In this document: piece after piece, positions 3,418 through 60,772 of the stretch | Layout: every line of letters begins with the position of its first letter | How positions within the stretch are numbered: position 1 is the first letter of the stretch | Source: Sinomonas atrocyanea | Lineage (GTDB): Bacteria; Actinomycetota; Actinomycetes; Actinomycetales; Micrococcaceae | Length of the DNA stretch: 64,000 nt | Reading direction: 5' to 3' | NCBI RefSeq assembly: GCF_030811715.1 | Contig: NZ_JAUSRH010000014.1 | Location: 1-64,000, forward strand | Position numbers and translations under genes: made by a program | Notes under the pieces: generated by a model | What the model saw: the letters and a program-made list of their open reading frames with translations, nothing else | Database searches by the model: none | Told to the model about the DNA's origin: nothing

Positions 3418-3476
3418 ACGACGCCGGCCCCGCACCCACCGCTCGCGAGGAGCCGGGGGTGCGGGGCCGGCGTCGT
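3418..3476. repeat. palindromic repeat (AHDAG family) doubling as a hairpin
   Basis: A perfect 20-bp inverted repeat (3418-3437 and 3457-3476) with a 19-base loop lies between the lipase stop and the start of the SRPBCC gene. Both arms contain the CCGGCGTCGT core that recurs elsewhere in the window. It could stop transcription coming from the lipase gene. Confidence 0.75.
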
Positions 3477-3523
3477 GCACGGCCGCGGAACGGGACCGGA
3501 CGCAGATCAGGACCAGATGAGGA

Positions 3524-4372
3524 CTAGACGCAGGCCGGGCGGAAGGACGGGTCCGCGGGACCGGCCTGGAGGAGTGCGTTCGAGACGAGGGCCCAGACGT
3601 TCGGGTCATTGGGCGACTGGTCGTGCTCGATGGCATCCAGCGGGCAGTAGTCCTGCAGCACGAGGTTGGTGACCTGCTTGGAGGAGCCTGCCAGCGCCTG
3701 GGACGTGTACGGGGTGACCACCTCGTCGTAGCGGGTGGAGATGACGGTGTACGACGGCCCCGCCACAGTGTCGCCGACGGAGTTGAGCTGGGCCATGAAC
3801 GACGAGCCCGCGTGCTGGTCGGCACAGGCCTGGCACGCCGTGCTCGTGGCGGTCGTGTCGAGGACCATCCCCGCGGGCGAGGGCGCGATGAGGCCCTGCG
3901 TGCCGTGGTTGGACGGCGCGATGCCGATCAGCTGGTGCACGTACTTGGCGCCGCCGAGGAAGCCCATGTAGTAGCGCGGCATCATGCCGCCCTGGCTGTG
4001 TCCCACGAGGTCGACCTGCTTGGCGCCGGTCGCGCCGAGCACGGACTGCACGAACTGCCCGAGTTCGGCCGCGGAGTCCGCGACGGGGCCGCTCGCGGGC
4101 ACGCCGTTCACCACGCCGTAGTTGAGGGAGAAGACGCAGTAGCCCTGGTCCTTGAGGACCGGCGAGAGCAGGGCCCAGTTCTTGTACATCGTCTCGAACG
4201 TGCCGGGGACGAGGACCACCGGATACGGGTGGACGGCGGAGGGCTTGCAGGTGAAGTCGTTCGCCCCGGGCGGGTCGGGCGAGACCGAGTCGGCCTGGGC
4301 GGCCGGCGCCGCGACGAGGCTGACGGCCAGCAGGGCGGCGGAGAGCAGTGCGGTGAAGTGGAATCGGCGCAT
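3524..4372 (-). CDS. secreted triacylglycerol lipase/esterase
   Basis: The predicted 282-residue precursor starts MRRFHFTALLSAALLAVSLVAAPAAQADS, a Sec signal peptide with a cleavage site after AQA. The mature protein is a class 2 alpha/beta-hydrolase lipase: VVLVPGTFETMYKNWALLSP (oxyanion region), nucleophile elbow GHSQGG, the acid in STRYDEVVTPY, and the histidine in AIEHDQSPND. Four cysteines may form disulfides. It is likely exported to hydrolyse lipids or short esters. The ATG at 4372 has GGAGG six bases upstream; the frame is open further up but lacks a signal-peptide start there. Confidence 0.88.
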   Translation of the reverse strand: MRRFHFTALLSAALLAVSLVAAPAAQADSVSPDPPGANDFTCKPSAVHPYPVVLVPGTFETMYKNWALLSPVLKDQGYCVFSLNYGVVNGVPASGPVADSAAELGQFVQSVLGATGAKQVDLVGHSQGGMMPRYYMGFLGGAKYVHQLIGIAPSNHGTQGLIAPSPAGMVLDTTATSTACQACADQHAGSSFMAQLNSVGDTVAGPSYTVISTRYDEVVTPYTSQALAGSSKQVTNLVLQDYCPLDAIEHDQSPNDPNVWALVSNALLQAGPADPSFRPACV

Positions 4373-6708: not shown

Positions 6709-6740
6709 GGCGGGCGCGCGGCCGGCGTCGTGCGCCCGCC
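6709..6740. terminator. hairpin containing the AHDAG-family repeat core
   Basis: GGCGGGCGC (6709-6717) and GCGCCCGCC (6732-6740) form a perfect 9-bp stem between the convergent acyl-CoA dehydrogenase and GH31 genes. The loop and right arm hold the repeat core GCCGGCGTCGTGCG (6721-6734). It is well placed to act as a bidirectional terminator. Confidence 0.55.
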
Positions 6741-10922: not shown

Positions 10923-10968
10923 CTCAGGCGAGCGGGGAGGCCGACGGCGAGCGGCCGGCGTCGTGCGC
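10923..10968. repeat. 46-bp dispersed repeat, copy 1 (AHDAG family)
   Basis: These 46 bases are identical to 16935-16980. The copy contains the stop codon and last 14 codons of the HMG-CoA-lyase-like gene, which are read as AHDAGRSPSASPLA. The 3' part holds the core GCCGGCGTCGTGCG (10954-10967). Confidence 0.95.
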
Positions 10969-16934: not shown

Positions 16935-16980
16935 CTCAGGCGAGCGGGGAGGCCGACGGCGAGCGGCCGGCGTCGTGCGC
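16935..16980. repeat. 46-bp dispersed repeat, copy 2 (AHDAG family)
   Basis: Identical over 46 bases to 10923-10968. Here it supplies the stop codon and last 14 codons of the amino acid permease gene, read in the same frame as in copy 1 (AHDAGRSPSASPLA). Confidence 0.95.
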
Positions 16981-21686: not shown

Positions 21687-23057
21687 ATGACCGCCGCAAC
21701 CGTTGCACCCTCCGCCGATCCGGCCGCCGTCCCCCAGCGCGCCCGCCGGCTCGTCACCGAGTTGCCGGGACCGCGCTCGCGCGAGCTCGAGGCCGAGCGC
21801 CGCCGCCACGTCACCGAGGGGTTCGGCGTCACGCTGCCGGTGTTCATCGACCGGGCCGAGGGCTCCCTGCTCGTGGACGTGGACCGGAACCGGATCATCG
21901 ACTTCGCCTCGGGCATCGCGGTGACGAGCGTGGGCGCAGCGAACCCGCGCGTGGCCGAGCGCGCCGCCGCCCAGCTGGGCCGCTTCACGCACACGTGCTT
22001 CATGGTCACGGAGTACTCCTCCTTCGTGGAGGTGTGCCGGTGGCTCAACGAGCACACGCCCGGGGACTTCGACAAGCGCACCGCACTCTTCTCGACGGGG
22101 GCGGAGGCGGTCGAGAACGCGGTCAAGATCGCCCGCTCGGCCACCCGGCGCCCGAACGTCCTCGTCTTCGACGAGGCCTACCACGGCCGCACCCAGCTGA
22201 CCATGGCCATGACCGCCAAGGAGAACCCCTACCGCCTCAATTTCGGCCCCCTCCCCGGCGCGGTATTCCGCGGTCCGACGGCGCCCGCGCACCTCGCGCC
22301 GGCCGATCCGGCAGCCTCCGCGGAGTACGTTGCCGAGGCCCTTGCAGGGGTCGAGACGGTCCTCGCCGAGGCGGGTCCCGAGACGTTCGCTGCCATGGTC
22401 GTCGAGCCCGTCCAGGGCGAGGGCGGCTTCGTGGTGCACACGGACGGCTTCCTGGCGGGGCTGCGCGAGATCGCGACGCGGCACGGGATCGTGCTCGTGG
22501 TCGACGAGATCCAGGCCGGCATGGGCCGCACGGGCGCCCTGTTCGCCTCGGAGCACGACGGCGTGGCCGGGGACATCACCCTCTCCGCCAAGGCGCTCGG
22601 CGCGGGCCTGCCGCTCTCCGCCGTCACCGGCCGCGCCGAGCTCATGAACGCCGTCCACCCGGGCGGACTCGGCGGCACGTACGCGGGCAATCCGGTGGCG
22701 TGCGAGGCAGCGCTCGCCGTCTTCGAGCTCCTCGAGGACGGCTCGCTGCTCGCCGGGGCCCGCGGCATCGAGGCGGCGGTGCGGGCACGCTTCGAGCCCC
22801 TCCTCGCGCACGACGGCGTGGCCTCCGTCCGCGGCCGCGGCGCCATGATGGCGGTCGAGTTCGGGGACGCCTCCGGCCCCCGCGCCGACGTCGCCAAGGC
22901 CGCCGCCGCAGCCGCCAACGCCGCCGGGGTCCTCACTCTCACGTGCGGCACCCACGGCAACGTGATCCGGCTCCTGCCGCCCCTCGGCATCGAGCCCGAG
23001 GTCCTCGATGAGGGGCTGGCGGTGCTCGAGGCCGCGATCCGCGGGGCGCTCTCATGA
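21687..23057 (+). CDS. gabT: class III aminotransferase (4-aminobutyrate/5-aminovalerate type)
   Basis: The 456-residue PLP enzyme has FASGIAVTSVGAANPRV, FSTGAEAVENAVKIAR (phosphate loop), EAYHGRT, VVDEIQAGMGRTG and the PLP lysine in LSAKALGAGLPLSAV (near residue 302). It transfers the terminal amino group of GABA or 5-aminovalerate to 2-oxoglutarate. The glutaryl-CoA dehydrogenase further down the operon favours 5-aminovalerate (DavT role), but sequence alone cannot separate the two. GGGAGGA precedes ATG. The stop overlaps the next start by four bases. Confidence 0.9.
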   Translation: MTAATVAPSADPAAVPQRARRLVTELPGPRSRELEAERRRHVTEGFGVTLPVFIDRAEGSLLVDVDRNRIIDFASGIAVTSVGAANPRVAERAAAQLGRFTHTCFMVTEYSSFVEVCRWLNEHTPGDFDKRTALFSTGAEAVENAVKIARSATRRPNVLVFDEAYHGRTQLTMAMTAKENPYRLNFGPLPGAVFRGPTAPAHLAPADPAASAEYVAEALAGVETVLAEAGPETFAAMVVEPVQGEGGFVVHTDGFLAGLREIATRHGIVLVVDEIQAGMGRTGALFASEHDGVAGDITLSAKALGAGLPLSAVTGRAELMNAVHPGGLGGTYAGNPVACEAALAVFELLEDGSLLAGARGIEAAVRARFEPLLAHDGVASVRGRGAMMAVEFGDASGPRADVAKAAAAAANAAGVLTLTCGTHGNVIRLLPPLGIEPEVLDEGLAVLEAAIRGALS

Positions 23058-25896: not shown

Positions 25897-27458
25897 CCGC
25901 GGGAACGGACACCGCGCGGGTTTCGACTCCGCTTCGCTCCGCTCACCCACCGCAGCTGCGCCTCCTCATCGGCGGGGACTGGGTGGCGGGCGACGGCGGC
26001 CCGCTCGCCTCCCGCAACCCGGCCCGCCCCGACGAGGTGGTCGCCGAGGGCACCCAGGCCGTGCCGGCCGACGTCGACCGTGCGGTGCGCGCGGCCCGCG
26101 CCGCCGCCCGCGCATGGGCCAGCACCCCGATCCACGGCCGCGGAGCCGTCCTGGCCCGCGCGGCGGCGGCGCTCGAGGGCCGGGCGGATGAGCTCGGTCT
26201 CGAGCTGGCCCGTGAGGAGGGCAAGACGCTCGCCGAGGGCACGGGCGAGGTGCTGCGCGCGGCGCAGATCCTGCGCTACTACGCCGGCGAGGGCGATCGC
26301 GCGGCGGGCGAGCACTTCGCGTCCCCGCGCCGCGGCGAGCGGATCCTCGTGACCCGCAAGCCCCTCGGGGTCGTCGGGATCGTCACGCCCTTCAACTTCC
26401 CCATCGCGATCCCGGCCTGGAAGATCGCGCCCGCGCTCGTCTACGGGAACACGGTGGTCTGGAAGCCGGCCTCGACCGTGCCGCTGCTCGCGGCGCGGCT
26501 CGCCGAGGCGCTCGACGGCGCGGGCCTGCCCGCCGGCGCGCTCAATGTCCTGATCGGGCCGGGGTCGCTCGGCACCGAGCTCGTGCGGCACCCCGGGCTC
26601 GACGGGCTCTCCTTCACCGGCTCGACGGGGGTGGGCCGCATGCTCGCCGGCGAGGCGGCCTCACGCGGGGTCCCGTTCCAGGGCGAGATGGGAGGGAAGA
26701 ACGCCGCGATCGTCCTCGCGGACGCAGACCTCGACCTCGCCGCCGAACAGGTCCTCTTCGGCGCGTTCCGCTCCAGCGGGCAGAAGTGCACCGCGACGTC
26801 GCGGCTCATCGTCGCCGACGAGGTCGCCGACGAGCTCCTCGCGCGGCTGACCGCCCGGCTCGACGCGTGGCGCGTGGGCGATCCCAGCGACCCCTCGGTC
26901 CACATGGGCCCGCTCGTCACCGCATCCGCGGCCGAGGGAGTGCGGGCCGCGGTCGCCGCGGCCGAAGCCGAGGGCGCGCGGGTCGCCTACCGCGGGCAGG
27001 CGCCTGACGGTGACGCGCACGACGGCGCCGACGCACCGTCCGCGTTCGTCCCGCCCACCATCCTCGAGATCCCCGCCGCAGCCGCGGGCGGCGAGCACGG
27101 AGCGGGAGGCGGGCAGCCGGCGTCGTGCGTCCCGAGCCGGAACACGGCGTGGCGCGAGGAGCTCTTCGGACCCGTGCTCGCGGTGCGCCGCGCGGGCTCG
27201 GTCGAGGAGGCCTTCGCGCTCGCGGAGGACTCGGAGTTCGGGCTGTCCGCGGCCCTGTTCACGCGGGACATCGCCACGGCCCTCGAGGCGGTCGACGCGC
27301 TCGACGTGGGCATCCTCCACGTCAACTCCGAGTCGGCCGGCGCGGACCCGCACGTGCCGTTCGGCGGGGCGAAGAAGTCCGGGTACGGGCCCAAGGAGCA
27401 GGGCGCAGCGGCGCGGGAGTTCTTCACCCATACCACCACGGTCTACCTGCGGGGGTAG
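25893..27458 (+). CDS. aldehyde dehydrogenase (succinate/glutarate semialdehyde type) with repeat-derived insert
   Basis: The 521-residue enzyme has the NAD site TPFNFPIAIPAWKIAPAL, GSTGVGRMLA, the general base in FQGEMGGKNAAIV (near 263) and catalytic Cys in SSGQKCTATSRL (near 297). It probably oxidises the semialdehyde made by the upstream aminotransferase. The GTG start overlaps the gcdH stop. Two regions look foreign: residues 9-20, translated from a GGTTTCGACTCC-type repeat, and about residues 397-417 (GGEHGAGGGQPASCVPSRN), which interrupt the usual PTILEIP...EELFGPVLAV segment and contain the AHDAG-family core read from the other strand. Confidence 0.88.
   Translation: MTAGTDTARVSTPLRSAHPPQLRLLIGGDWVAGDGGPLASRNPARPDEVVAEGTQAVPADVDRAVRAARAAARAWASTPIHGRGAVLARAAAALEGRADELGLELAREEGKTLAEGTGEVLRAAQILRYYAGEGDRAAGEHFASPRRGERILVTRKPLGVVGIVTPFNFPIAIPAWKIAPALVYGNTVVWKPASTVPLLAARLAEALDGAGLPAGALNVLIGPGSLGTELVRHPGLDGLSFTGSTGVGRMLAGEAASRGVPFQGEMGGKNAAIVLADADLDLAAEQVLFGAFRSSGQKCTATSRLIVADEVADELLARLTARLDAWRVGDPSDPSVHMGPLVTASAAEGVRAAVAAAEAEGARVAYRGQAPDGDAHDGADAPSAFVPPTILEIPAAAAGGEHGAGGGQPASCVPSRNTAWREELFGPVLAVRRAGSVEEAFALAEDSEFGLSAALFTRDIATALEAVDALDVGILHVNSESAGADPHVPFGGAKKSGYGPKEQGAAAREFFTHTTTVYLRG
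25918..25952. repeat. GGTTTCGACTCC-type repeat inside the aldehyde dehydrogenase N-terminus
   Basis: The sequence GGTTTCGACTCCGCTTCGCT and the following CCGCTCACCCACCG match the intergenic elements at 28785 and 37975, here slightly longer. It is translated as VSTPLRSAHPP. No other in-frame start lies close downstream, so the repeat seems to be truly coding. Confidence 0.6.
27116..27129. repeat. AHDAG-family core, in frame inside the aldehyde dehydrogenase
   Basis: GCCGGCGTCGTGCG is read on the sense strand as QPASCV. The 30 bases before it resemble those before the core in the 46-bp repeat (GAGC/GGGAGGC blocks), so a whole element seems to be inserted. Confidence 0.7.
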
Positions 27459-37131: not shown

Positions 37132-37974
37132 ATGGCCCCCACCAGCAGCGATCTGGCAAGCACCGAGCTGGGCAGCTACGAAACGCTCGAGCTCGACCTC
37201 ACGGAGGGCATCCTGACCCTCACCGTGAACCGCCCCCAGGCCCTCAATGCCCTCTCCCAGCAGGTCATCGCGGACCTGTGGAAGGCCTTCACCGCGATCG
37301 AGGACTCCTGCACGCACGACGCCGGGTGGCCGGTCCGCGGGGTCATCGTCACCGGTGCGGGGGGCAAGGCCTTCGTGGCGGGGGCGGACATCCGCGAGAT
37401 GGCGTCGATGGAGCCCGACGAAGCGGCGGAGTACGCGCGCTCCGCCCAGGGCGTGACGCTCCTGATCGAGAAGGTGCCGGTGCCGGTCATCGCGGCGGTG
37501 GACGGGTTCGCCCTCGGCGGCGGCTGCGAGCTGGCCCTCGCGTGCGACTTCATCTACGCCTCGGAGGCCGCCCAGTTCGGCCAGCCCGAAGTCAACCTCG
37601 GGCTCGTGCCCGGCTTCGGCGGGTCGGTGCGCCTGCCCCAGCGCGTGGGACTGGGTCCCGCGCGCGAGCTCATCTACACGGGCCGGCGCATCGACGCAGC
37701 CGAGGCCCTCCGCCTCGGGCTCGTCAACCGGGTCCTCCCCGGCCGCGAGGAGCTCCTCGCGGCGGCGCGCGCCACCCTCGGCGAGATCGCCCCGAAGGCC
37801 CCGCTCGCCGTCGGGCTCGCCAAGCAGTCCATCACCCGCGCGTACGGGCGGCACACCGGCCAGGGCCTCGAGATCGAGGCCGAACTGTTCCGCGAGGCGT
37901 TCACCACCGAGGACATGCGCGAGGGCACGTCGGCGTTCCTCGAGAAGCGCGGGGCGGCGTTCACGGGGAAGTAG
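37132..37974 (+). CDS. enoyl-CoA hydratase/isomerase family protein
   Basis: The 280-residue crotonase-fold enzyme has LTVNRPQALNALSQQVI, GKAFVAGADIREMASM and VDGFALGGGCELALACDFIYASE with both oxyanion loops, then QPEVNLGLVPGFGGSVRLPQRVG with the catalytic Glu region. It hydrates 2-enoyl-CoA in beta-oxidation. CTHDAGWP (about residues 60-67) is an extra segment compared with usual members and contains the CACGACGCCGG core. GAGGAC precedes ATG. Confidence 0.88.
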   Translation: MAPTSSDLASTELGSYETLELDLTEGILTLTVNRPQALNALSQQVIADLWKAFTAIEDSCTHDAGWPVRGVIVTGAGGKAFVAGADIREMASMEPDEAAEYARSAQGVTLLIEKVPVPVIAAVDGFALGGGCELALACDFIYASEAAQFGQPEVNLGLVPGFGGSVRLPQRVGLGPARELIYTGRRIDAAEALRLGLVNRVLPGREELLAAARATLGEIAPKAPLAVGLAKQSITRAYGRHTGQGLEIEAELFREAFTTEDMREGTSAFLEKRGAAFTGK

Positions 37975-40045: not shown

Positions 40046-40937
40046 GCCCACTCCGGGCCTCCGGGCGTCCGACACCTGGGCGCCCGCTCCGGCTCTGCGC
40101 GCACGGACGTTCGCCTGCATGGGCACGGTGGTCAGCCTCACCGCGCCCGTGGGCTCTGGCAGCGCGGCGCAGGCCGATCTCGATCGGCTCGAGGCCGCGG
40201 CCGCCGTGGTCGAGGACCAGTTCGCGGCCCTCGACGCGCAGTTCAGCCTCTACCGGCCGGACTCGGAGGCGAGCCGGATCGCCCGCGGGGAGCTGGCCCT
40301 CCTGCAGGCCAGCCCGCTCCTGCGGGACCTGTACGCCGACGCGGTGCGGTGGCGCGGCCGGACCGACGGCGCCTTCACGCCCGAGCGTCCGGACGGGCTC
40401 CTGGACCTGGGCGGCCTCGTGAAGGGGTACGCGATCGCCGAGGCGGGCCGCTCCCTCGTGGCGCTCGGCCTGCACGACTGGTGCCTCAACGCGGGCGGAG
40501 ACGTGCTCGTCTCCGGTTCACCGGCGCCGTCGTCCGCGTCCTCGGCTTCCGCGGCGGCGGGTGAGGCCGGCGCTCCCCCGTGGCTCGCCGGGATCGTGGA
40601 CCCCGCCGATCGGCGCACCCTGCTGGGCTCCTACCCGCTCGGGCCGCGGCCGCCGGCGCGGCTCGCTCTGGCGACCTCGGGCTCGGCCGAGCGCGGCGAC
40701 CACATCTGGACCGTCGGGCTGCGCGGGCCCTCCGGCCACCGCCGGCCCGAGTTCGCCCAGGTGAGCGTGGCGGCGCAGGACATCGTCACCGCGGACGTCC
40801 TCGCCACCGCGGTCGTCGCCGGCGGCCGGGCCACCCTCGATGCCGTCACCGCCCGCTGGGACGTGGACGTGCTCGCCGTGGCGCACGACGGCGGCCTGCT
40901 CGCCACCCCGGGGTTCCGCGCCCCGAGCGCGGCGTAG
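40029..40937 (+). CDS. apbE: FAD:protein FMN transferase
   Basis: The 302-residue ApbE-family protein has FACMGTVVSLTAPVG, FSLYRPDSEASRIARGE, the FAD-site segment DLGGLVKGYAIAEAGRSL, LNAGGDVLVSG, ATSGSAERGDHIWT and the metal-binding DIVTADVLATAVVAGG. It attaches FMN to the SGAT motif of the preceding protein. The start overlaps that gene by 17 bases; an earlier ATG at 39996 is possible. A Ser/Ala-rich linker (SPAPSSASSASAAAGEAG) is inserted in the middle. There is no clear signal peptide, which is odd because flavinylation is usually outside the membrane. Confidence 0.88.
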   Translation: MQPISEPTPGLRASDTWAPAPALRARTFACMGTVVSLTAPVGSGSAAQADLDRLEAAAAVVEDQFAALDAQFSLYRPDSEASRIARGELALLQASPLLRDLYADAVRWRGRTDGAFTPERPDGLLDLGGLVKGYAIAEAGRSLVALGLHDWCLNAGGDVLVSGSPAPSSASSASAAAGEAGAPPWLAGIVDPADRRTLLGSYPLGPRPPARLALATSGSAERGDHIWTVGLRGPSGHRRPEFAQVSVAAQDIVTADVLATAVVAGGRATLDAVTARWDVDVLAVAHDGGLLATPGFRAPSAA

Positions 40938-45282: not shown

Positions 45283-46203
45283 ATGACTTCCGGTGCCGGA
45301 CGCTTCGCCCCCAGCCCCTCGGGCGAGCTGCACGTGGGCAACCTCCGCACCGCCCTGCTCGCGTGGCTCTTCGCCCGGTCCGCGGGCCGGCGGTTCATCC
45401 TGCGCGTCGAGGATCTGGACCGGGCCCGGGCGGGAGCCGAGGAGGTCCAGCTGAGGGACCTCGCCGCCGTCGGCCTCGACTGGGACGGCGAGGTGGTCCG
45501 CCAGACCGAACGGGGCGGGCTCTACGAGGAGGCGATCGCGCGTCTGGCCGCCGCCGGCCTCACCTACGAGTGCTACTGCACCCGGCGCGAGATCCAGGAG
45601 GCGCCCAGCGCCCCGCACGCGCCGCAGGGCGCGTACCCCGGCACGTGCCGCGACCTCACCGAGGCGCAGCGCGCACGACGCCGCGCGGAGCGTCCCGCCG
45701 CCATCCGCCTCCGCGCCTCGGTCACCGACTGGGCCGTCACAGACGTGCTGCACGGGCGGTATTCGGGGCTCGTGGACGATTTCGTCCTGCGCCGCAACGA
45801 CGGAGTGGTGGCCTACAACCTCGCGGTGGTCGTCGACGACGCCGCCCAGGGCGTGGACCAGGTGGTCCGCGGCGACGACCTGCTCCCCTCGGCCCCGCGG
45901 CAGGCCTACCTCGCCGGGCTGCTCGGCGCGCGCGTGCCCGAGTACGCCCATGTGCCGCTCGTGCTCAACCCCGCCGGGCGCCGCCTGGCCAAGCGCGACG
46001 GCGCGGTGACGCTCGCCGAACTCGCCACCGCCCGGGTCGGCCCCGAGGAGGTGACCGCGCTGCTCCTCGGCTCGCTCGGGCTGCCCGCGACGCTGGCCGA
46101 GGCGCTCAGGGCCTTCGACCCCTCCGCGCTCCCCCGCGACCCGTGGGTCCTGGACCCGCAGGACCTGACAGGCGGGGCGCGCGGGATCAGCCCTGCATCG
46201 TGA
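45283..46203 (+). CDS. gluQ: glutamyl-Q tRNA(Asp) synthetase
   Basis: The 306-residue protein is a truncated glutamyl-tRNA synthetase with only the catalytic domain: RFAPSPSGELHVGNLRTALLAWLFARS (HIGH-type motif), DLDRARAGAEEVQLRDL, the zinc-site region YECYCTRREIQ...YPGTCRDLT, GDDLLPSAPRQAYLAGLLG and the KMSKS-like RLAKRDGAVTL. It charges glutamate onto queuosine in tRNA(Asp). It begins 20 bases after the LLM gene; its end overlaps the convergent monooxygenase gene by 17 bases. Confidence 0.92.
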   Translation: MTSGAGRFAPSPSGELHVGNLRTALLAWLFARSAGRRFILRVEDLDRARAGAEEVQLRDLAAVGLDWDGEVVRQTERGGLYEEAIARLAAAGLTYECYCTRREIQEAPSAPHAPQGAYPGTCRDLTEAQRARRRAERPAAIRLRASVTDWAVTDVLHGRYSGLVDDFVLRRNDGVVAYNLAVVVDDAAQGVDQVVRGDDLLPSAPRQAYLAGLLGARVPEYAHVPLVLNPAGRRLAKRDGAVTLAELATARVGPEEVTALLLGSLGLPATLAEALRAFDPSALPRDPWVLDPQDLTGGARGISPAS

Positions 46204-48695: not shown

Positions 48696-49880
48696 TCAGA
48701 GCACCCCGGCGGACTCGAGCTGCTGGGCCAGTCCCGCGCCGTCCGGCGCCGAAGCCCAGGTGAGGCCCGGGCGGGAGGCGCCCCCTGCGGCGTCGTGCGT
48801 GGTGCCGCCCGAGAAGACCGCCTGGCCGGGCGAGAGCTCCCGGATGGCGACCGCGGCCACGGAGTCGGGGTGCGCGGCGGCGAACTCGGCGTAGATCGAC
48901 TCGTCGTGCTGGCCGTTGTCGCCCACGAGGAGCCAGCGGATGCCGGGGAACTCGGCGGCGAGGCGCTCGAGGTTCTCCCGCTTGTGGTCCCGGCCCGAGC
49001 GGAACCAGCGCTCCGGGGTCATGCCCCAGTCAGTGAGCAGGAGCGGGCCCGCCGGGTACAGGTTGCGTCCCAGGAACCGCTGGAGCGTGGGCGCGGCATT
49101 CCACGGCCCGGTCGAGAGGTACACGATCGGCGCCTCCGGATGCTCCGTGGCGAGCCGGTCGAGGAGCACCGCCATGCCCGGGGTGGGCGTGCGGGCCCGC
49201 TCGCTGAGCACGAAGGTGTTCCACAGCGCGAGGAACGGCCGCGGGAGGGCGGTGACCATGACGGTGTCGTCGATGTCGGAGACGATCCCGAAGCCCGCGC
49301 CCGGCTCGACGACGAGCACCTGCGCGGTGTCCGGCTCGGCCCCGTCCGCGCTCATCCGCGCCTCGTGCCAGCCCGGTTCGAGCTCCACGTCCACGAGCGC
49401 GTCGACCACCCCGCCGGCGTCGGCATGCACGACGGCGCGCGTCGCCCCGATCTCGACCGTCACCTCAGCGTGCTGGATCGGCACGGACGTGAAGGAGACC
49501 CAGCCTCGGAAGTTGTTGAAGGCATCCGACTCACCGTGCAGGCCCGGCCGGGAGTACATGACGCGTCCGAGCACGCGCACGCGCCGCGTGGACCCGTACC
49601 CGCGGTACGCGACCACCTGGGCCACGTAGTCTCCGCGCTTGGCCTGGCGGGTGCGGAGGTCGTTCCACCTCTGGGCGACGCGCTGCGCCACACGGAAGAG
49701 CGGCTTGAGGCGGGGCGAGGCGCCGGCGCACTCCGGTGCAGGCGGGGCGGCGGTGGCTGTCGCGGTGCCGGCTGCCGCGGTGCCTGGTGTCCCGGTGCCG
49801 GCTGCCCCGCCATCGGGCCCAGCGCCGGCGGTGCGGGGGCCCTCGGGGCCGGAGACGGCGTTGGCATGCTGCGCGGTCAT
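48696..49880 (-). CDS. App1-family phosphatase (DUF2183)
   Basis: The 394-residue protein has a Pro/Ala/Gly/Thr-rich N-terminal tail (residues 12-50), a beta-rich middle part (GRVMYSRPGLHGESDAFNNFRGWVSFTSVPI) and a haloacid-dehalogenase-type catalytic domain with VSDIDDTVMVTALPRPF (near 202), IVYLSTGPWN and LLVGDNGQHDESIYAEFA. Yeast App1 is a phosphatidate phosphatase, so lipid phosphatase activity is plausible. GTTHDAAGGASRPG near the C-terminus is probably another in-frame copy of the dispersed repeat. Confidence 0.87.
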   Translation of the reverse strand: MTAQHANAVSGPEGPRTAGAGPDGGAAGTGTPGTAAAGTATATAAPPAPECAGASPRLKPLFRVAQRVAQRWNDLRTRQAKRGDYVAQVVAYRGYGSTRRVRVLGRVMYSRPGLHGESDAFNNFRGWVSFTSVPIQHAEVTVEIGATRAVVHADAGGVVDALVDVELEPGWHEARMSADGAEPDTAQVLVVEPGAGFGIVSDIDDTVMVTALPRPFLALWNTFVLSERARTPTPGMAVLLDRLATEHPEAPIVYLSTGPWNAAPTLQRFLGRNLYPAGPLLLTDWGMTPERWFRSGRDHKRENLERLAAEFPGIRWLLVGDNGQHDESIYAEFAAAHPDSVAAVAIRELSPGQAVFSGGTTHDAAGGASRPGLTWASAPDGAGLAQQLESAGVL

Positions 49881-50013: not shown

Positions 50014-51477
50014 TCAGACGCGCGCGAGCTGCTCGATGTCCTCGAGGAACGCGGCCGCAACCTCCTCGCTCACGGTCGTCTTCGTCTCGGCGACGGCCTC
50101 GAGGTAGTCCTGCGTGGTGGGTCCGCGGCGCGCCAGTGCGGCCGCGGGATGGGACCCGTCCGGTGCACTGGTGCGCCCCGACTCCAGCCCTGCCGCGGGG
50201 CCGCCGGCGAGGGACGCGCCGCCGCCGGCCGGGCCGGCGTCGTGCGCCAGGTCCCCGGCGTCGCGGTGGACGGCGCCCCCGGCCGCGGGCGAGCCTGCCA
50301 TCCCCGGCACTGGGACCGGCTCCGCCGCGTACACCGCCTTCTCGAGCGCGCGCTGGGACGCCGACCGCGCCGCGAACTCGATGTCCGCCGGCGAGAATCC
50401 CTCCGTGTGCTCCACGAGCTGCTCCACGTCCACCTCGGCCAGGACCGCCTCCGGGATGAAGCGCTGCCACATGGCCCGGCGTGCCTCGGCGTCCGGCAGG
50501 CCGATGGGGATCACGTAGTCGAACCGGCCATGGCGCAGGAAGGCGGAGTCGAGGGCGCGGATGAAATTGGTCGCGCACACGAGCAGGCGGCCGGGCTGTT
50601 CGCGGAAGGCAGGGATGATCTTGAGTAGCTCGTTCGTGACGCCCTGGTTGGGGCTGGGCGGGTCGCCGGCGCGGTGGGAGGCGATCTCCTCGACCTCGTC
50701 CAGGAAGACCACGGCGTGCTCGAGCTCGGAGATCTCGAGGAAGGTGGTGCGCAGCGCGCCGGCGAGGCCCTCCGGCCCGGCGGCGAGGCGGGACGGGAAC
50801 ACCTCGACGAACGGCCACTCGAGGCGGGAGGCGATCGCCTTCGCGAACGTCGTCTTGCCGGTCCCCGGCGGCCCGAAGAGCACGACGGCGCGCGGGGGCA
50901 CCACCCCGAACTCGTCCGCGAGCTCGGCCTGGGCCAGCGGAAGCACGAGCCGGCGCTCGAGGAGCTGCTTCTCCCGCTTCATGCCGGCCACCCGGTCCCA
51001 CAGGTCGCGCGGGAGGACGCGGCCGCCCAGCTGGGCCAGAGGCTCGAGTTCGGTGCGCTGGACCGGGATCTGCCGCTCGAAGAAGCGCAGGTTCTGCACG
51101 TCCTTGAATCCGCGGGAGAGGAAGGCCTCGAGGCGGGTCTCGGTGTCCGGCATGAGCGCGGACAGCTTGGTCAGGCCCAGGGGGGCCATGCGGTTCTCGA
51201 GGGCAGCGAGGAGCGCGGTGCCGATCCCGCGCGAGCGCCACTCCGGCAGGGTCGCGAGGAACACGATCCAGCCCTGCTCGTGCGCTGCGCGGCCCACGGC
51301 GGCCCCGACCACGTCGTCGCCGTGCAGGGCCACGACGGCCACGTCCTTCTGGCAGCTCGCGAGGACCTCGGAGAGCGAGTACACCGGTTCGATGCCCGAG
51401 GCCGTCATGGCGCTCCACAGGTGCAGGATCCCGTCCAGGTCCGAGGGGTGGAAGTCCCTGATCCGCCACGTGGTCAT
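50014..51477 (-). CDS. GNAT acetyltransferase fused to an AAA+ ATPase
   Basis: The 487-residue protein joins an N-terminal GNAT domain (residues 1-140: WIVFLATLPEWRSRGIGTALLAALENRM, acetyl-CoA loop RSRGIG) to an AAA+ module. The module has Walker A VVLFGPPGTGKTTFAKAIA near 199, Walker B AVVFLDEVEEIASHR near 257, and sensor/arginine-finger region LLVCATNFIRALDSAFLRHGRFDYVIPI. The AAA part is of the FtsH/Cdc48 type. It might couple acetylation or acetyl-CoA sensing to remodelling of a protein. The function is not known. Residues about 388-440 are a low-complexity linker holding AHDAGPAGGG from the dispersed repeat. Confidence 0.87.
   Translation of the reverse strand: MTTWRIRDFHPSDLDGILHLWSAMTASGIEPVYSLSEVLASCQKDVAVVALHGDDVVGAAVGRAAHEQGWIVFLATLPEWRSRGIGTALLAALENRMAPLGLTKLSALMPDTETRLEAFLSRGFKDVQNLRFFERQIPVQRTELEPLAQLGGRVLPRDLWDRVAGMKREKQLLERRLVLPLAQAELADEFGVVPPRAVVLFGPPGTGKTTFAKAIASRLEWPFVEVFPSRLAAGPEGLAGALRTTFLEISELEHAVVFLDEVEEIASHRAGDPPSPNQGVTNELLKIIPAFREQPGRLLVCATNFIRALDSAFLRHGRFDYVIPIGLPDAEARRAMWQRFIPEAVLAEVDVEQLVEHTEGFSPADIEFAARSASQRALEKAVYAAEPVPVPGMAGSPAAGGAVHRDAGDLAHDAGPAGGGASLAGGPAAGLESGRTSAPDGSHPAAALARRGPTTQDYLEAVAETKTTVSEEVAAAFLEDIEQLARV
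50233..50246. repeat. AHDAG-family core inside the GNAT-AAA+ gene
   Basis: GCCGGCGTCGTGCG, read on the minus strand as AHDAG, within a Gly/Ala-rich linker between the ATPase module and the C-terminal helix TTQDYLEAVAETKTTV. Confidence 0.75.
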
Positions 51478-53519: not shown

Positions 53520-53633
53520 GGCGGGGCAGTGGTTGAGGCGTCAGGCACCCGCCCAGACTACGCGCCCGCCACGCACGACGCCGCGCCGCACCTCCCGCGT
53601 GACGCCGCCTCCCGCGGGGACTACTCGCAGGCG

Positions 53634-54558: not shown

Positions 54559-54670
54559 GACCTGACTCCTCAACCCGACGGACGTGACTCCTCAACCCGA
54601 CGGACGTGACTCCTCAACCCGACGGACGTGACTCCTCAACCTGACGGGCGTGACTCCTCAACGCCCGACG
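54559..54670. repeat. 22-bp tandem array, five units, downstream of jetC
   Basis: Units begin at 54559, 54581, 54603, 54625 and 54647, with core GACGTGACTCCTCAACCCGA; the last unit is 24 bp. The array ends 29 bases beyond the jetC stop codon, where jetD begins in complete Wadjet operons. Confidence 0.95.
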
Positions 54671-54699
54671 GACGCGCTTGACGGACTGCGGGCCAGCCG

Positions 54700-57600
54700 T
54701 CAGCGCAGCACGATGTCCACGGGGTTCGCCTGCGACACCGGCCCCCCGGGGACCGACGGGCCCTCGATGAGCCCCGACCGGTTGGTGCGCCTGTCCCGCA
54801 GGATCTCCGTGACGGACCCGAGGTAGCGCGAGAGGTCGATCACGTTCTCTGGGGCCGCGAGCAGCAGCTGGAAGCCGAACTCGTGCAGCGCCGCGATGCC
54901 CTGGCCGGCGAACTCCTCGGACGCGAGCACGAACGCCTCGTCCATCATGACGGTCCCGTAGCCCGTGAACCCGTGCTCGGCGATGCCCAGCTGGTAGCTC
55001 AGGGCCGCGGCCATGATGAACGCAGTGAAGCGCTGCCGCTCGCCGCCGGACATCGAGCCCGTGTCCGCGTGCACGAACACCTCGTCCCGCGCCGTGCCCG
55101 CGGCGGCGTCCCGCGAGACCCGGTGCTCCTTGCAGGAGATGAACACGTGGGCGCGCGTGTCGAGCACCTCGGCCCGCCACCGCCGGTCCTCGGGCGTCTG
55201 GGACGCGAGCCGCTTCACGAGCGCCTCCAGCGTCTTGTAGCGGACGGTGAGCTGGTCCTCTCCGGCGCCGACCCCGGCGGTCCCGCTGCCGCCCGAGGAG
55301 GCCGGGCCGGCGTCGTGCGCCGCCGCGGAATTCGCGGACGACGGCGCGTGGCGCGCCTTGAGCGCGGAGACGATCGCCTCCTTGAACTGCTTCGCGGACG
55401 CCGGGACGGTCTGGCGGATGTCCAGCTCGAGGTACGAGCCGTCGTGGAAGTCCACCCCGGCCAGGATCGAGTTGAGCGGCAGGATGCGGGCCGCAATGCC
55501 GCGGCGCTCCTCGTCGAGCAGGTGCAGCAGCGTCGAGAAGGACTCGTGCGTGCGCTGGGCGAAGAACTCCCGGAACTGCGCCTCCTGCGCGGGCAGGCCC
55601 TCCGAGACGATCTGGCGGTAGCGGGCCTCGAACGCGGCCGCGGCCCCGATCGAGACGCCGTGGTCCGCCGCGACCACGGGGCCCCAGTCGCGCTGGAACT
55701 GCTCGAAGATGCGGGTGAGCCGCTCGGCCGCGGCCTGCGCGCGGCTCTCCGCGGCGTGCACGCGGGCAGCGAGGCGGCCATGGACCTCGGCGGCGATCCG
55801 CTCGAGGTCGTGCTGGTCCGCGGCCTGGCCGAACTCCTCGAACAGCGGCCCGAGCGTGCCAGTCGCCGCGGCAGACGGCGGGGCGTCGGCGAGGCGGGCC
55901 CGCGCGGCCTCGAGGAGCCGATCGGCAGTCACCAGCTGCGCGTCGAGCTGGCGGTACTCGCTCTGGAGCACGGCCGCGGCCTCGGTGGAGGCCTGGTGCT
56001 CTGCGCGGGCCGCCTCGACCTTGGCACGCAGCGGCTCGAGGTCACCCTGGGCCGCGAGCGCGTCCTCGAGGCGGGCGCCGATGCGGCGCAGCTCGTCCTC
56101 GGCCGCGGCAGAGGAGACCTCCTCCCACGCCCGCTCGTCCCGGGCCACCCGCCGCAGCGCCTCGAGCCGGCGGGAGAGGCCCTGGTGCGAGTCCTCGCTC
56201 GCCTGGGCCGCCTCGGCCGCTGCGGCGAGGGAGGCCTCGAGCTCGAGGACCCGCCCGGCGAGGAGCTCGACCTTGGCCGCGTTGTCGAAGCCGAGCACGA
56301 AGTCCGCGCGGGCCGCAAAGCGGTCGTCCTTCTCGACAGTGCCGCGGCCGCGCTTGACCACGCCGCCGAGGCTCAGGCCGCGCTCGAGGCCGGCGAGCTC
56401 GTCCGGGTCCTCCACGCACGTGTAGGCGAAGTCCACGGCGATGCGCTCGCGGACGTAGTCGCCGGCCGGGCCCGGGACCACCTCGAGCTTGGAGAGCAGG
56501 TCTCGCTCCCCGACCGAGGCGAGGGCGAGCTCCGCACCGGGGACGCGGCTGGAGAGGTCGACCGCGCGCAGTGCCCCGCGCACCGGGTTCGCGTCGAGCC
56601 ACCGGGTCACCGCCGCGAAGTGCTGGCCCGGGACGAGCAGGGTGGTGGCCAGCGAGCGCAGGGCCCGCTCGGCGGCAGGGCGCCACCGCTCCTGGTCCTC
56701 GGCGAGGTCGATCAGCTCCCCGCCGAACGGCATCTCGTCCTCGTCGAGGCCGAGCGCCGAGGCGATCGCGGCGCGGTTCTCGACCGCGTGCTGGGGCAGG
56801 AGGCTCTTGCTCTGCGCGAGGGCCGCGAGCTCCGAGCGCGCCTCGGCGAGCTCGCGCTTGGCGGTCGCGTGGACCTCGAAGGCGTCGAAGCGGGCCTCCC
56901 GCAGTGCCGCGGTGTCCCCCTCGAGCCCGGCGAGGGCCTCGGCGGCCTGCCGGTGCGCCGCCTCCCAGCCCTCGGCGGAGAACGGAAGGTCGAGGCCGGC
57001 GTCGTGCAGGCCGGCCTTCGCCGCGGCCTCGACCTCTCGGCGCAGGCGCAGGCCCACGGTCGCGTTGTCCCGGGCCTGCTCGAGGGCGGAGATCTGGTTG
57101 CCGCCGGCGCTGTTGTACTCGGCCTCGAGGGAGCGCAGCTCGGCGGCCAGGGCGTCGCGGCGGTGGCGCTCGGCGGAGAGCTCCTTCGCCTTCGCCTGGG
57201 CGCGGTCCCGGATGCCGGCGATGAGCCGCTCCTGGACGGCGACGGCGTGGGACTGGCGGACGGCGTCGAAGGGCTCGTCGGCGAGCTCGCGCAGGCGGGC
57301 GGCCTCGGTCAGGGCGGCCTCGTACTCCTGATTCAGGGCGGGGACGGGGGCGAGCTGGTCGCGCTGGAGCCTGATGTCCTCGAGCCGGGCCCGGATGGAC
57401 ATGAGGTTGCTGAACTCCTCGACCACCTCGTCGGCGGCCGCGAGCGTGGCGGGCGGGTCGAGGACCTGGTCCCGGAAGAAGCTGTTGACGCTGCCGCCGA
57501 GGCCCTTGCCGGCCTGGATGACGCGCAGGAGCGGGAGCGCCTGGTCGCTCGAGATGCCCAGGAGCCGGCGGAAGCGCTCGGCGAAGTTCTTGTGGACGTC

Positions 57601-58173
57601 GAAGACCTGTGCCTCGGGGAAGACAGCTTCGAGGCCGCTGCGGGTGAAGCGCCGGCCGGGAGTCTGGCCGATGATGCCCTCGACCGCCGCCACATCCAGC
57701 GGCACCGAGTCGATGAGGTAGAAGCGCCCCAGGCTGGACTCCGTGCCGTTCTTGGGCAGGTCGAACAGCGCGGTGAGCGTGTAGGCGGTGCCGGCCGCAT
57801 TGTCGAAGGTGAGGGCGACGGCGCTCCAGGTGGCCCCCGGGCGCTGGAACGCGCTCGCGCGGCCCTCCCCCACGGCCATGTCGCCGACCTTGCCGCGCAT
57901 GTACGTGTAGGTGGTGCGACGGTCCTCGCTGTGCCCGGCGCGCGCCGCGGCGGCCTCGTTGGAGCGCGGGCGGGCGTCGAACACGCGGGCGATCGCGTCG
58001 AACAGCGTCGACTTGCCCACGCCCGAGTTGCCCGTGAGCATGGTGCCCGCACGGTCCACGTGCATGGTGTGCGTCCCGTGGAAGGTGCCCCAGTTGACCA
58101 CCTGGACGAGGCTGAGCCGGTACTGGCCGGGATTGATGGCCGTGCCGAGTGGGAGCATGGTCGCGACGCTCAC
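54700..58173 (-). CDS. jetC: JetC/MksB-type SMC-like ATPase
   Basis: The 1157-residue protein opens with [20 protein letters not shown] and Walker [22 protein letters not shown] (near 50). It has long charged helices (about 290-440 and 640-830) on either side of a central domain. It closes with ABC signature [14 protein letters not shown] and Walker [20 protein letters not shown]. This is the motor subunit of the MksBEF/JetABC condensin, which extrudes DNA loops and, with JetD, cuts plasmids. An insert with [18 protein letters not shown] just before [14 protein letters not shown] comes from the dispersed repeat. It overlaps jetB by four bases. Confidence 0.9.
55306..55319. repeat. AHDAG-family core inside jetC
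   Basis: GCCGGCGTCGTGCG on the plus strand, translated from jetC as AHDAG in a Gly/Ser-rich stretch absent from the flanking conserved text. Confidence 0.75.
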
Positions 58174-59150
58174 AGGAGCCCCTCCGTCTCGTCCGATCCG
58201 CCGAGGTCACCCCGTGGGACGCCGACGTCGCCCCCTGGGACGCCGACGTCACCCCCTGGGACGCCGACGTCACCCCGTGGGCCCTCGAAGTCGGGGGCGT
58301 CCTCGTCCTCCACGGGATCGGCGCCCTCGGCGCCCTCGGCGCCCTCGGCGCCCTCGGGTTCTTCTGCTCGGTCCCCGTCGCCTGCGGCGAGGTCCACGTC
58401 CAAGGCGACCTGGCCGGCGTCGTCCGCGGAACCGCCGTCCCGCGCGGGCCCCGCGGCGGCGACGGCCTCGAGGTGCCGGGTGACGTCGCCGATGTTCTCG
58501 AACGGCAGGGCGAGCGGAAGGGCGTTGGAGATGAGGTACACGTCCTCGAGCGGGGTGGGGATGAGGAGGCGGCGGGCCTGGAGCTTGGCGACCGCGCGGT
58601 TGACGGTGTCCGCGTCGCGGAGCGCGTCCTGCTCCTCGGCGGGCTGGTAGTGGGCCACGACGTCGGCGAGCTCCTCGAGCGTGACGGTCGGCTCCGTCTG
58701 GGCCGTGGCATGCCGGTCCAGGAGCAGCCGGAGCCGCAGCAGCAGGATGGTCTCGACGCGGCTGAGCGCGCGCTGCTGGCGCAGGACCGTGGCGCGCGAC
58801 GCCGTCCCCAGCAGCTCCGGGTCCACCGGCCGCAGCACGGCGATCTTGCGTTCGTGGTCGATCTGGAGGCGGAGGAACAGCTCGGACAGCCGCGAGCGCA
58901 GGACGTCCTCGTGGTCCAGCAGCGTGGTCCACGCCTTCTCGTCGCGGCCGCCGTCGAGGTACGGGCCCTTCAGGAGGCGCACCAGGACGTGGCGGACGCG
59001 CAGCGGGAGGACGCCGGTGTCGCCGTCGTAGAGGGCCGTGCCGGGCACGAACGGTTCCTCCGGCCCGACCTCGGCGTCCAGCGGGGTGACCTCGGCGTCC
59101 AGCGGCCCGACCTCGGCGTCCGCAAGGGTGACCTCGGCGTCAGTTTCCAT
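58170..59150 (-). CDS. jetB: JetB/MksE-type condensin subunit (DUF4194)
   Basis: The 326-residue protein has the DUF4194/KITE-like core (about 35-235): [50 protein letters not shown], and [37 protein letters not shown]. The first 30 residues (DAEVTPL repeats) and last 45 residues ([11 protein letters not shown] and GDVGVPG repeats) come from tandem repeats and lie outside the core. The start shares its A with the jetA stop (TGATG), and the end overlaps jetC by four bases. Confidence 0.88.
58203..58286. repeat. 21-bp minisatellite at the 3' end of jetB
   Basis: Four 21-bp units (58203, 58224, 58245, 58266) related to GACGTCACCCCCTGGGACGC. They encode the GDVGVPG repeats at the JetB C-terminus. 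The unit is the inverse of the one at 59062-59145. A 9-bp repeat (CTCGGCGCC, about 58325-58360) follows. Confidence 0.95.
59062..59145. repeat. 21-bp minisatellite at the 5' end of jetB
   Basis: Four 21-bp units (59062, 59083, 59104, 59125) with core GTGACCTCGGCGTCCAGC. They encode the [14 protein letters not shown] repeats at the JetB N-terminus. On the minus strand the unit reads GGACGCCGAGGTCACCCC, nearly the same text as the plus-strand unit at 58203-58286. Confidence 0.95.
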
Positions 59151-60772
59151 CAGTTCTCCTCCCCGGAGGTCACGGAGGTCAGGGAGGCCGCAGGGGCCGC
59201 GGCGGCCCCGGACCTCCCCGCGGCCCCCACGGTCACCGTCGCGTTGGGGACGAAGGCGGTGCGCCGCGTCCCGTCGACCTGTTCGAATTCCAGCGGCGCC
59301 CACGCGTCCCGGCCGAACCCGACGCCCCGGTTGAGCAGGTGCCCCAGGAGCGCGCGGATCGAGTTGATGTGCTGCTCGTCGGCGGGCAGCTGGGACCAGA
59401 TGTCCGGCAGCTCGGCGCGGCCGCCGCCGGCCTCGAGGGCCACGTCCACCGCTTCCCGCAGCGCCGCGGCCCGCGCCTTGCCCGTGCGGGCGGAGCGGAC
59501 GCGGTCCTCGCGGCCGAAGGAGATGGGGGCGGCGAGCCGGGGCGGCGGCGCGAGCTCGTCGGGGTCGAACAGCTTGACCATGGACAGCGACTCGAACTCT
59601 GCGCCGAACAGTTCGGGCGCCGGCGCGAACCCGGACTCCTCGCGGACGTACGGGAGCTGGCGGACCGCCTGCTCGGCCCGTCGGATCGCGTCGCGGAGCC
59701 GGACGGACTGGCGGTAGTCGTCGCTCTGGACGTACGTGTTCAGGCTCTCCGAGAGCTTGCCGTAGATGCGCTGGATCTGGGCGTTGGCCTCGCGCAGCTC
59801 CGCGACGAGGTGCCGCAGGGTCTCCCGCTCCTCGTGGCCGAGCCCGTCGGCGAAGTCGCGCGAGAGGACCTCGGAGATCGCGGCCCGGAAGCGCATCTGC
59901 TGCTCGGGGTCGTCCAGGAACGCCGTGAACGAGCGGAAGGTGCGGCCCTCGCTGGAGGCGCGCAGCCGCCGGTCCGCCTCGAGGACCTGGGCCATCGTGG
60001 CGCCCTTGGTCAGCGACTCTTCGATGATCTGGTTGCGCAGCTGGCCCACGGAGTCCTCGATGCGGTCGCGCATGCGCTTGAAGTCGGCGGGGACGCCGGC
60101 GGCGAGGTCGAGGATGTTCTCGGCGGCCTCGAGCGCGGTCTCGTCGTCGAGGCTCCCGGTCTGCTCGCCGGTGCGCATGGCCCGCACGAGCTCGAGCCGC
60201 TCCTCGATCTCGGCTTCGAGGGCCTCGATCCTCGCCGTCGTGTCCGGGTTCGTCTCGCGGGCGAGCCTCTCCACGTCGCCGAGGAGCGTGCCGAGCCGCG
60301 AGCCGGTGAGTGTTGACCGCTCGGAGGAGAGGGAGTCGAGGAAGGCGAGCACGCGCGCCGTCGCCTCGGTGAGCTCGTACACGATCCGGCCGCCGTGCGC
60401 TCGGCGGGCGAGGAAGCGGCGGCGGGTCCAGTCGTCCGCGACGGCGCGTCCGGTCGCGGAACCGGCCGTGGGGGCGGCGCCGGAGGCGGCATCGTGCGCA
60501 CGGAGGTCGTCGAGGAAGGCGTCGAGCTCCTCGTGGAACTCTTCGAGCTCCACCTGCGGGCGATTGCGGGAGAACGCGGTCTGCAGCGCCGCGATGGTCC
60601 ACGGGGCCGAGCGGGTGAGGGCCCACGCCGGCCCGCGGTGGAGCGACTCGAGCTCGGCGAGGCGGACCAGCATGGCGGACGACGGCGATCCCGCCTGCGC
60701 GGGCCCCTCGCCGCGCGCCGGGGTGCTGGCAGGCACGGGGGCCGGCAGCGGTCGCGGAGAGGGTTCTGGCAC
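59150..60772 (-). CDS. jetA: JetA/MksF-type kleisin subunit (DUF3375)
   Basis: The 540-residue protein carries the DUF3375 pattern: [58 protein letters not shown] and [17 protein letters not shown], a coiled-coil middle ([19 protein letters not shown]) and [30 protein letters not shown]. It bridges the heads of the SMC subunit JetC. GTG 60772 is preceded by a promoter whose spacing fits a leaderless mRNA; ATG 60673 ([10 protein letters not shown]) is the alternative start. [13 protein letters not shown] is a possible degenerate repeat insert. Confidence 0.88.

Follow-up and report, generated by a model that had tools for sequence, protein, structure and literature searches.

A dispersed GC-rich repeat of the actinobacterium Sinomonas (Micrococcaceae), present in many copies in the 64,000-nt stretch of the Sinomonas atrocyanea genome analysed here (the window), is real and exists at the level of DNA. 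Its consensus is a sharply defined 13-letter word, CG[C/G]CGTCGTGCGY, dispersed on both strands. A sequence-only reading of the window had likened the repeat to the in-frame palindromic elements of Rickettsia. That likeness is disfavored, since copies in genes are mostly single arms under synonymous constraint and 15 Sinomonas genomes yielded no RAYT-type transposase (REP-associated tyrosine transposase, where REP is repetitive extragenic palindrome); the repeat is better described as a DNA signal word that the Micrococcaceae carry genome-wide and in dialects. We tentatively suggest, at a probability somewhat short of even, that the word works like DNA uptake sequences (DUS) and uptake signal sequences (USS), as a self-recognition signal read by a protein of the DNA-uptake machinery.

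In a scan of the window, the exact core GCCGGCGTCGTGCG occurs at 6721, 10954, 16966, 27116, 50233 and 55306, with one-mismatch copies at 3466 (+), 3415 (-), 18575 (+) and 37313 (-) and two-mismatch copies at 48786 (+), 53572 (-) and 60485 (+). The positions given by the sequence-only reading are therefore exact at six places and degenerate at others, the copy that it placed at 3469 having one mismatch (at 3466). When up to two mismatches were allowed, the window held 37 matches, compared with a mean of 9.0 and a maximum of 17 in 100 dinucleotide shuffles. The claimed excess over chance was also evident genome-wide: the 4.23-Mb genome contains 70 exact copies of the core (40 and 30 by strand), whereas reversed controls gave 0 and 1. 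Among 58 genomes searched, 9 of 15 Sinomonas have 18–70 exact copies of this 14-mer and the remaining 49 genomes have 0–10. Below, G000 denotes the window's own genome, G005 an S. atrocyanea relative and other G numbers further genomes compared. The 12-mer CGSCGTCGTGCG occurs 427 times in G000 (214 on one strand and 213 on the other, vs 15 for the reversed control) and 49–892 times in the 14 other Sinomonas, with 892 copies in G002, 734 in G004, 685, 670, 514, 448, 445 and 387 in six more, and 49–116 in six poor species; reversed controls across all 15 genomes gave 4–25.

According to a gene caller with start/stop logic trained on G000, 47 of the 70 exact copies lie in genes, 22 are intergenic, although intergenic DNA makes up 11.8% of bases, and 1 straddles a boundary. 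The core is followed by a pyrimidine in 65 of 70 copies and preceded by weak preferences for G at −8 (56 of 70), −5 (49) and −1 (54), with G at −8 in all 22 intergenic copies. The same family of words emerged from k-mer counts in stretches picked by synteny and not by motif: CGGCGTCGTGCG or CGCCGTCGTGCG ranked at the top in eight Sinomonas and CGCCGTCGTC in six, while G011 had only CGCCGTCGT among its top words there, yet carries 448 copies of the 12-mer genome-wide. In a 474-kb sample of G002, CGCCGTCGTGCG occurred 90 times against 2.9 expected from an order-4 Markov model. Its single-change neighbours were at or below chance at positions 1, 2 and 4–7; variation was tolerated at position 3 (G 31, T 14) and at the 3′ end (CCG 24, GCT 24). 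Stretches of other Sinomonas were also rich in words of their own (TTGCGGGGTCACCT in G011, TCGGGTACGCCAAC in G009), which may represent a second, species-specific repeat family.

Synonymous constraint, hairpins and dialects

The 47 copies in genes read HDAG in 29 cases, RTTP in 6, AGVV in 6 and other frames in 6; the aldehyde dehydrogenase copy at 27116, for instance, reads QPASC. Synonymous sites in the copies barely change. Among Sinomonas species, third codon positions differ at 194 of 2183 sites inside copies, compared with 6279 of 21178 in their flanks and 199083 of 693506 overall (pooled over 72 ordered pairs, which are not independent). Single pairs gave 1 of 52 in copies vs 92 of 491 in flanks (G000–G005, p 0.0007) and 0 of 31 vs 120 of 348 (G002–G012, p 7e-6). 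When codons were matched, 2 synonymous changes were found in 86 (9.9 expected; three close pairs) and 10 in 117 (36.0 expected; six pairs), and across the 28 pairs of eight rich species CGSCGTCGTGCG showed 27 changes in 544, against 133.1 expected from the same codons elsewhere. By comparison, CACGAC (His-Asp) codons elsewhere changed as expected (44 of 348 vs 45.9), and the rare codons GCA and CGA, which changed in 0 of 58 and 7 of 58 cases inside the word, changed in 82% and 85% of cases elsewhere (GCA and CGA, respectively; all ordered pairs). The flanks of the copies are themselves faster-evolving, with codon positions 1 and 2 differing at 0.120 and 0.113 vs 0.080 and 0.062. Of the control words in the codon-matched test, GACGACGSCG (6 of 105 vs 16.2) proved to be a related dialect, CG[CG]CCTCGTGC gave 1 of 33 vs 4.0, and one further planned word had no sites. 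Because synonymous sites in the copies are nearly frozen, the constraint acts on the DNA, and the AHDAG peptide is its consequence and not its cause.

Between genes the word is arranged differently. The density of the 12-mer per kb, intergenic and in genes, is 0.85 and 0.16 in G002, 0.30 and 0.079 in G000, 0.56 and 0.17 in G005, and 0.60 and 0.22 in G004. In G002, a reverse-complement arm lies within 60 nt upstream of 42 of 55 intergenic copies (downstream in 7), compared with 18 of 66 upstream and 16 of 66 downstream for copies in genes; copies in genes are thus mostly single arms. The corresponding values in the G000 sample are 7 of 17 upstream and 4 downstream between genes, and 5 of 34 and 7 of 34 in genes, and 56 of 92 intergenic copies are paired with an upstream partner in nine species pooled. 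Paired copies form near-perfect hairpins of about 28–63 nt (e.g., GCACGACGGCG-ACCCCCACCGCGGGCGGTGAGGGT-CGCCGTCGTGC), confirming that some copies, such as that at 3416..3478, are intergenic hairpins. Inner stems vary among hairpins yet stay complementary: in a set of 32 distinct hairpins between genes, taken from stretches sampled in 11 genomes, complementarity at the six inner pairs was seen in 25, 25, 27, 24, 23 and 19 cases, compared with 14.4, 13.7, 10.2, 12.2, 12.8 and 12.1 if the arms were independent. In G002, 19 of 24 hairpins lie at most 44 nt from a stop codon, and of 36 hairpins in nine species, 15 are flanked by convergent genes and 3 by divergent ones, settings that account for 15% and 26% of intergenic bases, respectively; 2 of the 36, at stretch edges, were left out of this orientation test. 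Judged by location and covariation, the intergenic hairpins appear terminator-like; no Rfam family reached threshold in the 124 kb searched.

The word also has dialects, built from a core CG[C/G]CGTCGT and a lineage-specific 3′ end: nine Sinomonas have GCGY, the remaining six have C(C), and the single g19 genome sampled has CGT (G032, which has 34 copies of CGCCGTCGTCGT vs 1.9 expected). Conservation in each species group is strongest for the group's own form. Among the eight rich species, the observed/expected ratio of synonymous changes was 0.20 for CGSCGTCGTGCG (GCG form) and 0.46 for CGCCGTCGTCC (CC form; 22 of 160 vs 47.9), with 53 of 294 vs 89.1 for CGCCGTCGTC. In the six poor species (15 pairs), the CC form gave 0.33 (28 of 238 vs 85.4), compared with 1.19 for CGCCGTCGTG (24 of 61 vs 20.2) and 1.12 for CGSCGTCGTGCG (8 of 25 vs 7.1, with 25 codons only). 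In the Arthrobacter group, CGSCGTCGT gave 0.40 (23 of 188 vs 57.0; 24 of 75 named loci, 24 pairs). Control words for this test, ten per set in 30 rows, gave ratios of 0.31–1.33, mostly 0.7–1.3; the lowest (0.31 from 3 of 47, 0.51 and 0.52) came from the poor-species set with few counts, and the control word CACGACG was contaminated by the motif itself.

At least one hairpin of the pattern ACGACGSCG-N4-34-CGSCGTCGT is present in 106 of 120 Micrococcaceae genomes (reversed control, 0–3), with 104–185 in five Sinomonas, 95–105 in four g19 genomes, 49–63 in five g20 genomes and 0–3 in genera g11, g21, g22 and g44 of the same family. Counts in 146 other Actinomycetes genomes were 0–18, except in genus g91 of family f38, outside the Micrococcaceae, whose genomes (G190, G207, G223, G260, G271, G281 and G291) have 17–46.

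Copies in the window

The features of the window, by coordinates and strand, are as follows.

1492..1503, plus strand: copy in a gene, CGC form, reading AHDGG
3416..3478, no strand assigned: intergenic palindrome with outward-facing arms GGACGACGCCGGC...GCCGGCGTCGTGC and a complementary inner stem, also in G013 and G005
6713..6735, plus strand: intergenic single copy GGCGCGCGGCCGGCGTCGTGCGC between convergent genes, the core 21 nt and 8 nt from the two stop codons
9114..9125, minus strand: copy in a glycosyl hydrolase 31 gene, CGC form, reading AAVVR, which may be there by chance
10923..10968, plus strand: 46-nt stretch identical to 16935–16980, encoding the C-terminal tail AHDAGRSPSASPLA of an HMGL-like gene (minus strand)
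16935..16980, plus strand: 46-nt stretch encoding the C-terminal tail AHDAGRSPSASPLA of an amino-acid permease gene (minus strand), a hairpin in G005 and G004
22807..22818, minus strand: copy in a gene, CGC form, reading AHDGV
27016..27027, minus strand: copy in an aldehyde dehydrogenase gene, reading AHDGA
27116..27130, plus strand: copy in a length-polymorphic aldehyde dehydrogenase segment, reading QPASC
29228..29239, plus strand: copy in a gene, reading AHDAV
37313..37324, minus strand: copy in an enoyl-CoA hydratase gene, reading THDAG, as it does in all 6 relatives that align there
40882..40893, minus strand: copy in a gene, CGC form, reading AHDGG
45672..45683, minus strand: copy called intergenic
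48788..48799, plus strand: copy in an APP1_cat gene, reading THDAA, with a CGC form at the same ungapped place in G012 and G002
50233..50246, plus strand: copy in a length-variable linker of a GNAT/AAA+ gene, reading AHDAG
53572..53583, minus strand: intergenic copy
55306..55319, plus strand: copy in a variable linker of a JetC-like gene (AAA_29, SbcC_Walker_B), reading AHDAG
56997..57008, plus strand: near copy with last base A in the JetC-like gene, reading LHDAG

At 10954 and 16966, which lie 6 kb apart and encode the same tail on unrelated proteins, relatives have a hairpin CGACGGCG..CGCCGTCG at the gene 3′ end (at the first place in G005, G004 and G012). In this genome the right arm has changed to CGGCGTCGTGCG, the CGG form, so that the hairpin is weaker and the word is kept. 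Their identity over 46 nt in this genome, set against their difference in G005, suggests local conversion. The enoyl-CoA hydratase copy at 37313 is an old conserved position and not an insertion, since its THDAG segment is the same here and in all six aligned relatives. At the JetC-like place (55306), several other Sinomonas have other forms at about the same position.

The window has further repeats and gene groups. A 22-bp tandem repeat with units like CGGACGTGACTCCTCAACGCGA forms three arrays (24379–24612, 29900–29958 and 54559–54674), partly in opposite orientation. Segments 41171–41730 and 53903–54461, 12.7 kb apart, are 72–78% identical in pieces, the second lying mostly in a GDSL-lipase gene. 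Genes with SbcC_Walker_B, DUF4194 and DUF3375 domains occupy 54700–60673 on the minus strand, and we take them to be JetC/JetB/JetA-like; the surrounding 19 kb is matched in 15 of 15 Sinomonas, and the DUF4194 gene contains 21-bp and 9-bp tandem repeats at 58199–58357. Three tandem paralogues lie on the plus strand at 62166–62765, 62799–63380 and 63415–63996; a scan of the first and third identified both as TerD-domain proteins.

What might read the word

One explanation for these properties is that a sequence-specific DNA-binding protein of the uptake (natural transformation) apparatus reads the word. Word-bearing fragments would then be preferentially taken up or recombined, and biased import would keep and spread the word in permissive places; inverted pairs would double as transcription terminators, and different 3′ ends would be dialects. 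We favor this explanation because the list of traits matches the published signature of DUS and USS (PMC2397512, PMC12616744, PMC2346458). Copies are also four-fold rarer in species-specific DNA, with a count of 4 in 57.6 kb against 137 in 468.8 kb (p 0.0006). Among the 12 species-specific segments is a block of G013 beside the counterpart of the window (L083, 12049–20000; C1, 3870048–3877999) that is unmatched in the relatives' fetched stretches, with a jump of about 9 kb. ComEC and ComEA are encoded in 15 of 15 Sinomonas, and Micrococcus luteus, a member of the same family, is naturally transformable (PMC4322843, PMC8467076) by means of Flp pili (PMC4322843); the terms 'uptake sequence', 'uptake signal' and 'sequence-specific' are absent from the main text of PMC4322843. 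DNA uptake sequences are described as known only from Neisseriaceae and Pasteurellaceae (PMC12616744). A fuller proposal would credit the Micrococcaceae with an uptake-sequence system of independent origin, a third one and the first among Gram-positives, with genus- and species-group dialects (CG[C/G]CGTCGT plus GCGY, CC or CGT), an envelope or pilus receptor and, in soil actinobacteria, kin-biased natural transformation; it is possible but a degree less probable than self-recognition as such.

Several observations weigh against an uptake signal. The GCG form is sparse in six of the 15 Sinomonas. The intergenic excess of the 12-mer is weak or absent in small window-syntenic samples of G013 (0.28 per kb intergenic and 0.23 in genes), G012 (0.17, 0.31), G003 (0.19, 0.24), G014 (0, 0.44) and G011 (0.22, 0.36), and the 9-mer shows none in G009 (0.55 vs 0.50 per kb) or G032 (0.44 vs 0.39), where gene calls rest on the caller trained on G000. 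In this genome's own sample only 7 of 17 intergenic copies are paired. ComEC is present in 120 of 120 Micrococcaceae, including genera almost without hairpins, and so does not track the motif. Species-specific DNA is a proxy for recently acquired DNA, and the sample was small, with some of its segments perhaps merely lacking a fetched counterpart. The indels near copies in genes, described below, leave room for insertion. A mild leading-strand excess of copies (61:38, p 0.03; 20 × 20 kb of G002) may reflect a connection to replication or gene direction. DUS occur in higher copy number than the word does here. Finally, uptake, binding, termination and the receptor are what we infer from the observed distribution, structure, constraint and dialects.

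The main rival is that the word is a site for another genome-wide protein, involved in chromosome organisation, recombination and repair, or global regulation, with the inverted pairs at 3′ ends being a by-product or having a use of their own. The DNA-level constraint in genes, the sharp core, the occurrence on both strands and the leading-strand excess are all compatible with such a protein. However, hundreds of sites would have to switch dialect together with it, and neither hairpins at stop codons nor rarity in species-specific DNA would be expected. Nor does the word behave like FtsK-orienting polar sequences (KOPS), since its strand bias in the G002 sample is weak and lacks the strong leading-strand skew of such motifs. 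We consider this rival unlikely, although it is stronger than those that follow. An origin-to-terminus gradient was considered and rejected: copies in G013 are concentrated around 3.8 Mb of its 4.4 Mb, which cannot be the terminus given the position of dnaA at about 1 kb.

A second rival retains the sequence-only reading, in which the word is a mobile palindrome of the REP type or a miniature inverted-repeat transposable element (MITE), with copies in genes being in-frame insertions decayed to one arm. Alignments with relatives bear on this directly. Copies in genes do sit in variable, indel-rich segments: a gap of at least 6 nt lies within 60 nt of 5 of 13 coding copies vs G005, compared with 72 of 1428 (5%) spanned random coding places, and near 7 of 10 spanned copies vs 137 of 1161 random places in G004. 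The word itself, on the other hand, is free of internal gaps in 13 of 13 coding copies vs G005 and in 10 of 13 vs G013 (3 unaligned). In all five G005 gap cases the word is retained with at most one mismatch; those indels thus did not bring it. Across six relatives, the word is lacking (two or more mismatches) in 14 spanned cases, with a gap close by in 8 of them and none in the other 6; indels and substitutions therefore both play a part. Most gaps near copies are 6–16 nt, shorter than the hairpin.

The aldehyde dehydrogenase copy at 27116 looks most like an insert, since a segment of about 60–90 nt there is mostly lacking in G013, G004, G012 and G002. Of the domains that the sequence-only reading named as interrupted or perhaps interrupted, this one is length-polymorphic, and linkers of variable length hold the copies in GNAT-AAA+ and JetC, but the App1 (48786) and JetA (60485) places are gap-free in the aligned relatives displayed. 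Insertion in frame was thus borne out only in part. A mobile palindrome would also account for intergenic hairpins of 28–63 nt near 3′ ends and for the 46-nt identical pair 6 kb apart, and CGTC-tagged REPs likewise lack a dedicated transposase (PMC3733652). A longer mobile unit was considered and rejected: among the 15 best pairs of copies, only 10954 and 16966 share 31 identical bases upstream (46 nt in total), the next-best pair matching at 32 of 39 and the others over at most 27 nt. The 70 exact cores have little flank in common, inner stems differ yet pair, and a decaying insertion does not predict strong synonymous constraint. The RAYT/Y1 transposase family (PF01797), which goes with the GTAG class of REPs and is lacking from the CGTC class, and for which a search had been proposed, gave matches in 0 of 15 Sinomonas genomes at E 0.001, compared with 5 of 14 control genomes, and copies in genes do not form REP or REPtron units (a tagged hairpin of 20–40 bp), partners being about as frequent on either side of them in G002. 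We therefore disfavor mobility as rather improbable. The indel-rich surroundings would also fit an uptake signal, given that many recent DUS in Neisseria face relatives without a similar word, a pattern read as arrival by recombination (PMC2397512).

Less probable still is that only the hairpins matter, as intrinsic terminators of conserved sequence, with single arms in genes being chance or remnants. The preference for convergent over divergent gene pairs and the covariation of inner stems agree with this, but genes hold no fewer copies than intergenic DNA (65 vs 55 in the G002 sample), the copies in genes are synonymously conserved, and the hairpins match no Rfam family in the sequence searched. 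A protein-level AHDAG linker motif, named with the sequence-only reading as its alternative, or a codon or composition bias of GC-rich linkers, might explain why most coding copies read HDAG, but with over a quarter of the exact copies intergenic, other frames in use and synonymous positions frozen while CACGAC elsewhere is free, it is refuted to the point of being barely credible.

Comparison with known systems

Searches of the literature on Sinomonas repeats, Arthrobacter uptake sequences and the arm sequences showed no report of the motif among the papers listed, as judged by title and with most subscription journals outside the search. An actinobacterial parallel is TRIT, the conserved-sequence terminators of Mycobacterium, which are likewise hairpins of conserved sequence at gene 3′ ends. 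We know of no constrained single copies of TRIT in genes, and the Sinomonas hairpins differ in having no Rfam match in the 124 kb.

CGTC-tagged REPs, including Rickettsia RPE-4 and RPE-6, are similarly short palindromes without a dedicated transposase, mostly downstream of genes and some inside them (PMC3733652, whose main text does not contain 'Actinobacteria' or 'Arthrobacter'). Their CGTC tag is unpaired, their stems are 8–9 bp long and start with AT pairs, and most have a CCA tail (PMC3733652). In contrast, the conserved Sinomonas word is the paired end of an arm, the inner stem is variable, and within genes most copies lack a partner and are under constraint. USS of Pasteurellaceae are unrelated in sequence but share an orientation bias in reading frames (PMC2346458), which here amounts to 23 vs 10 in G000 and 36 vs 25 in G002. 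Their bias toward gene termini (PMC2346458) is weak here, with 9 copies vs 5.2 and 6 vs 2.8 expected at most 90 nt from a stop codon.

If experiments bear out uptake, uptake sequences would be a novelty in this part of the tree of life. With a matching signature in an actinobacterial family, their origin and purpose would become directly testable in a third lineage, which has a transformable member, Micrococcus luteus. Even if another protein reads the word, hundreds of constrained sites with switching dialects constitute a large unexplained layer of genome information. The DUS of Neisseriaceae differ from the Sinomonas word in belonging to an unrelated phylum, in sequence, in having the receptor ComP and in being present in more copies. 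In other respects the two are alike, in that DUS are short words in many copies, are stringently conserved, form close inverted pairs that serve as terminators, prefer permissive regions, are absent from recently acquired genes and come in dialects with an invariant inner core (PMC2397512, PMC12616744).

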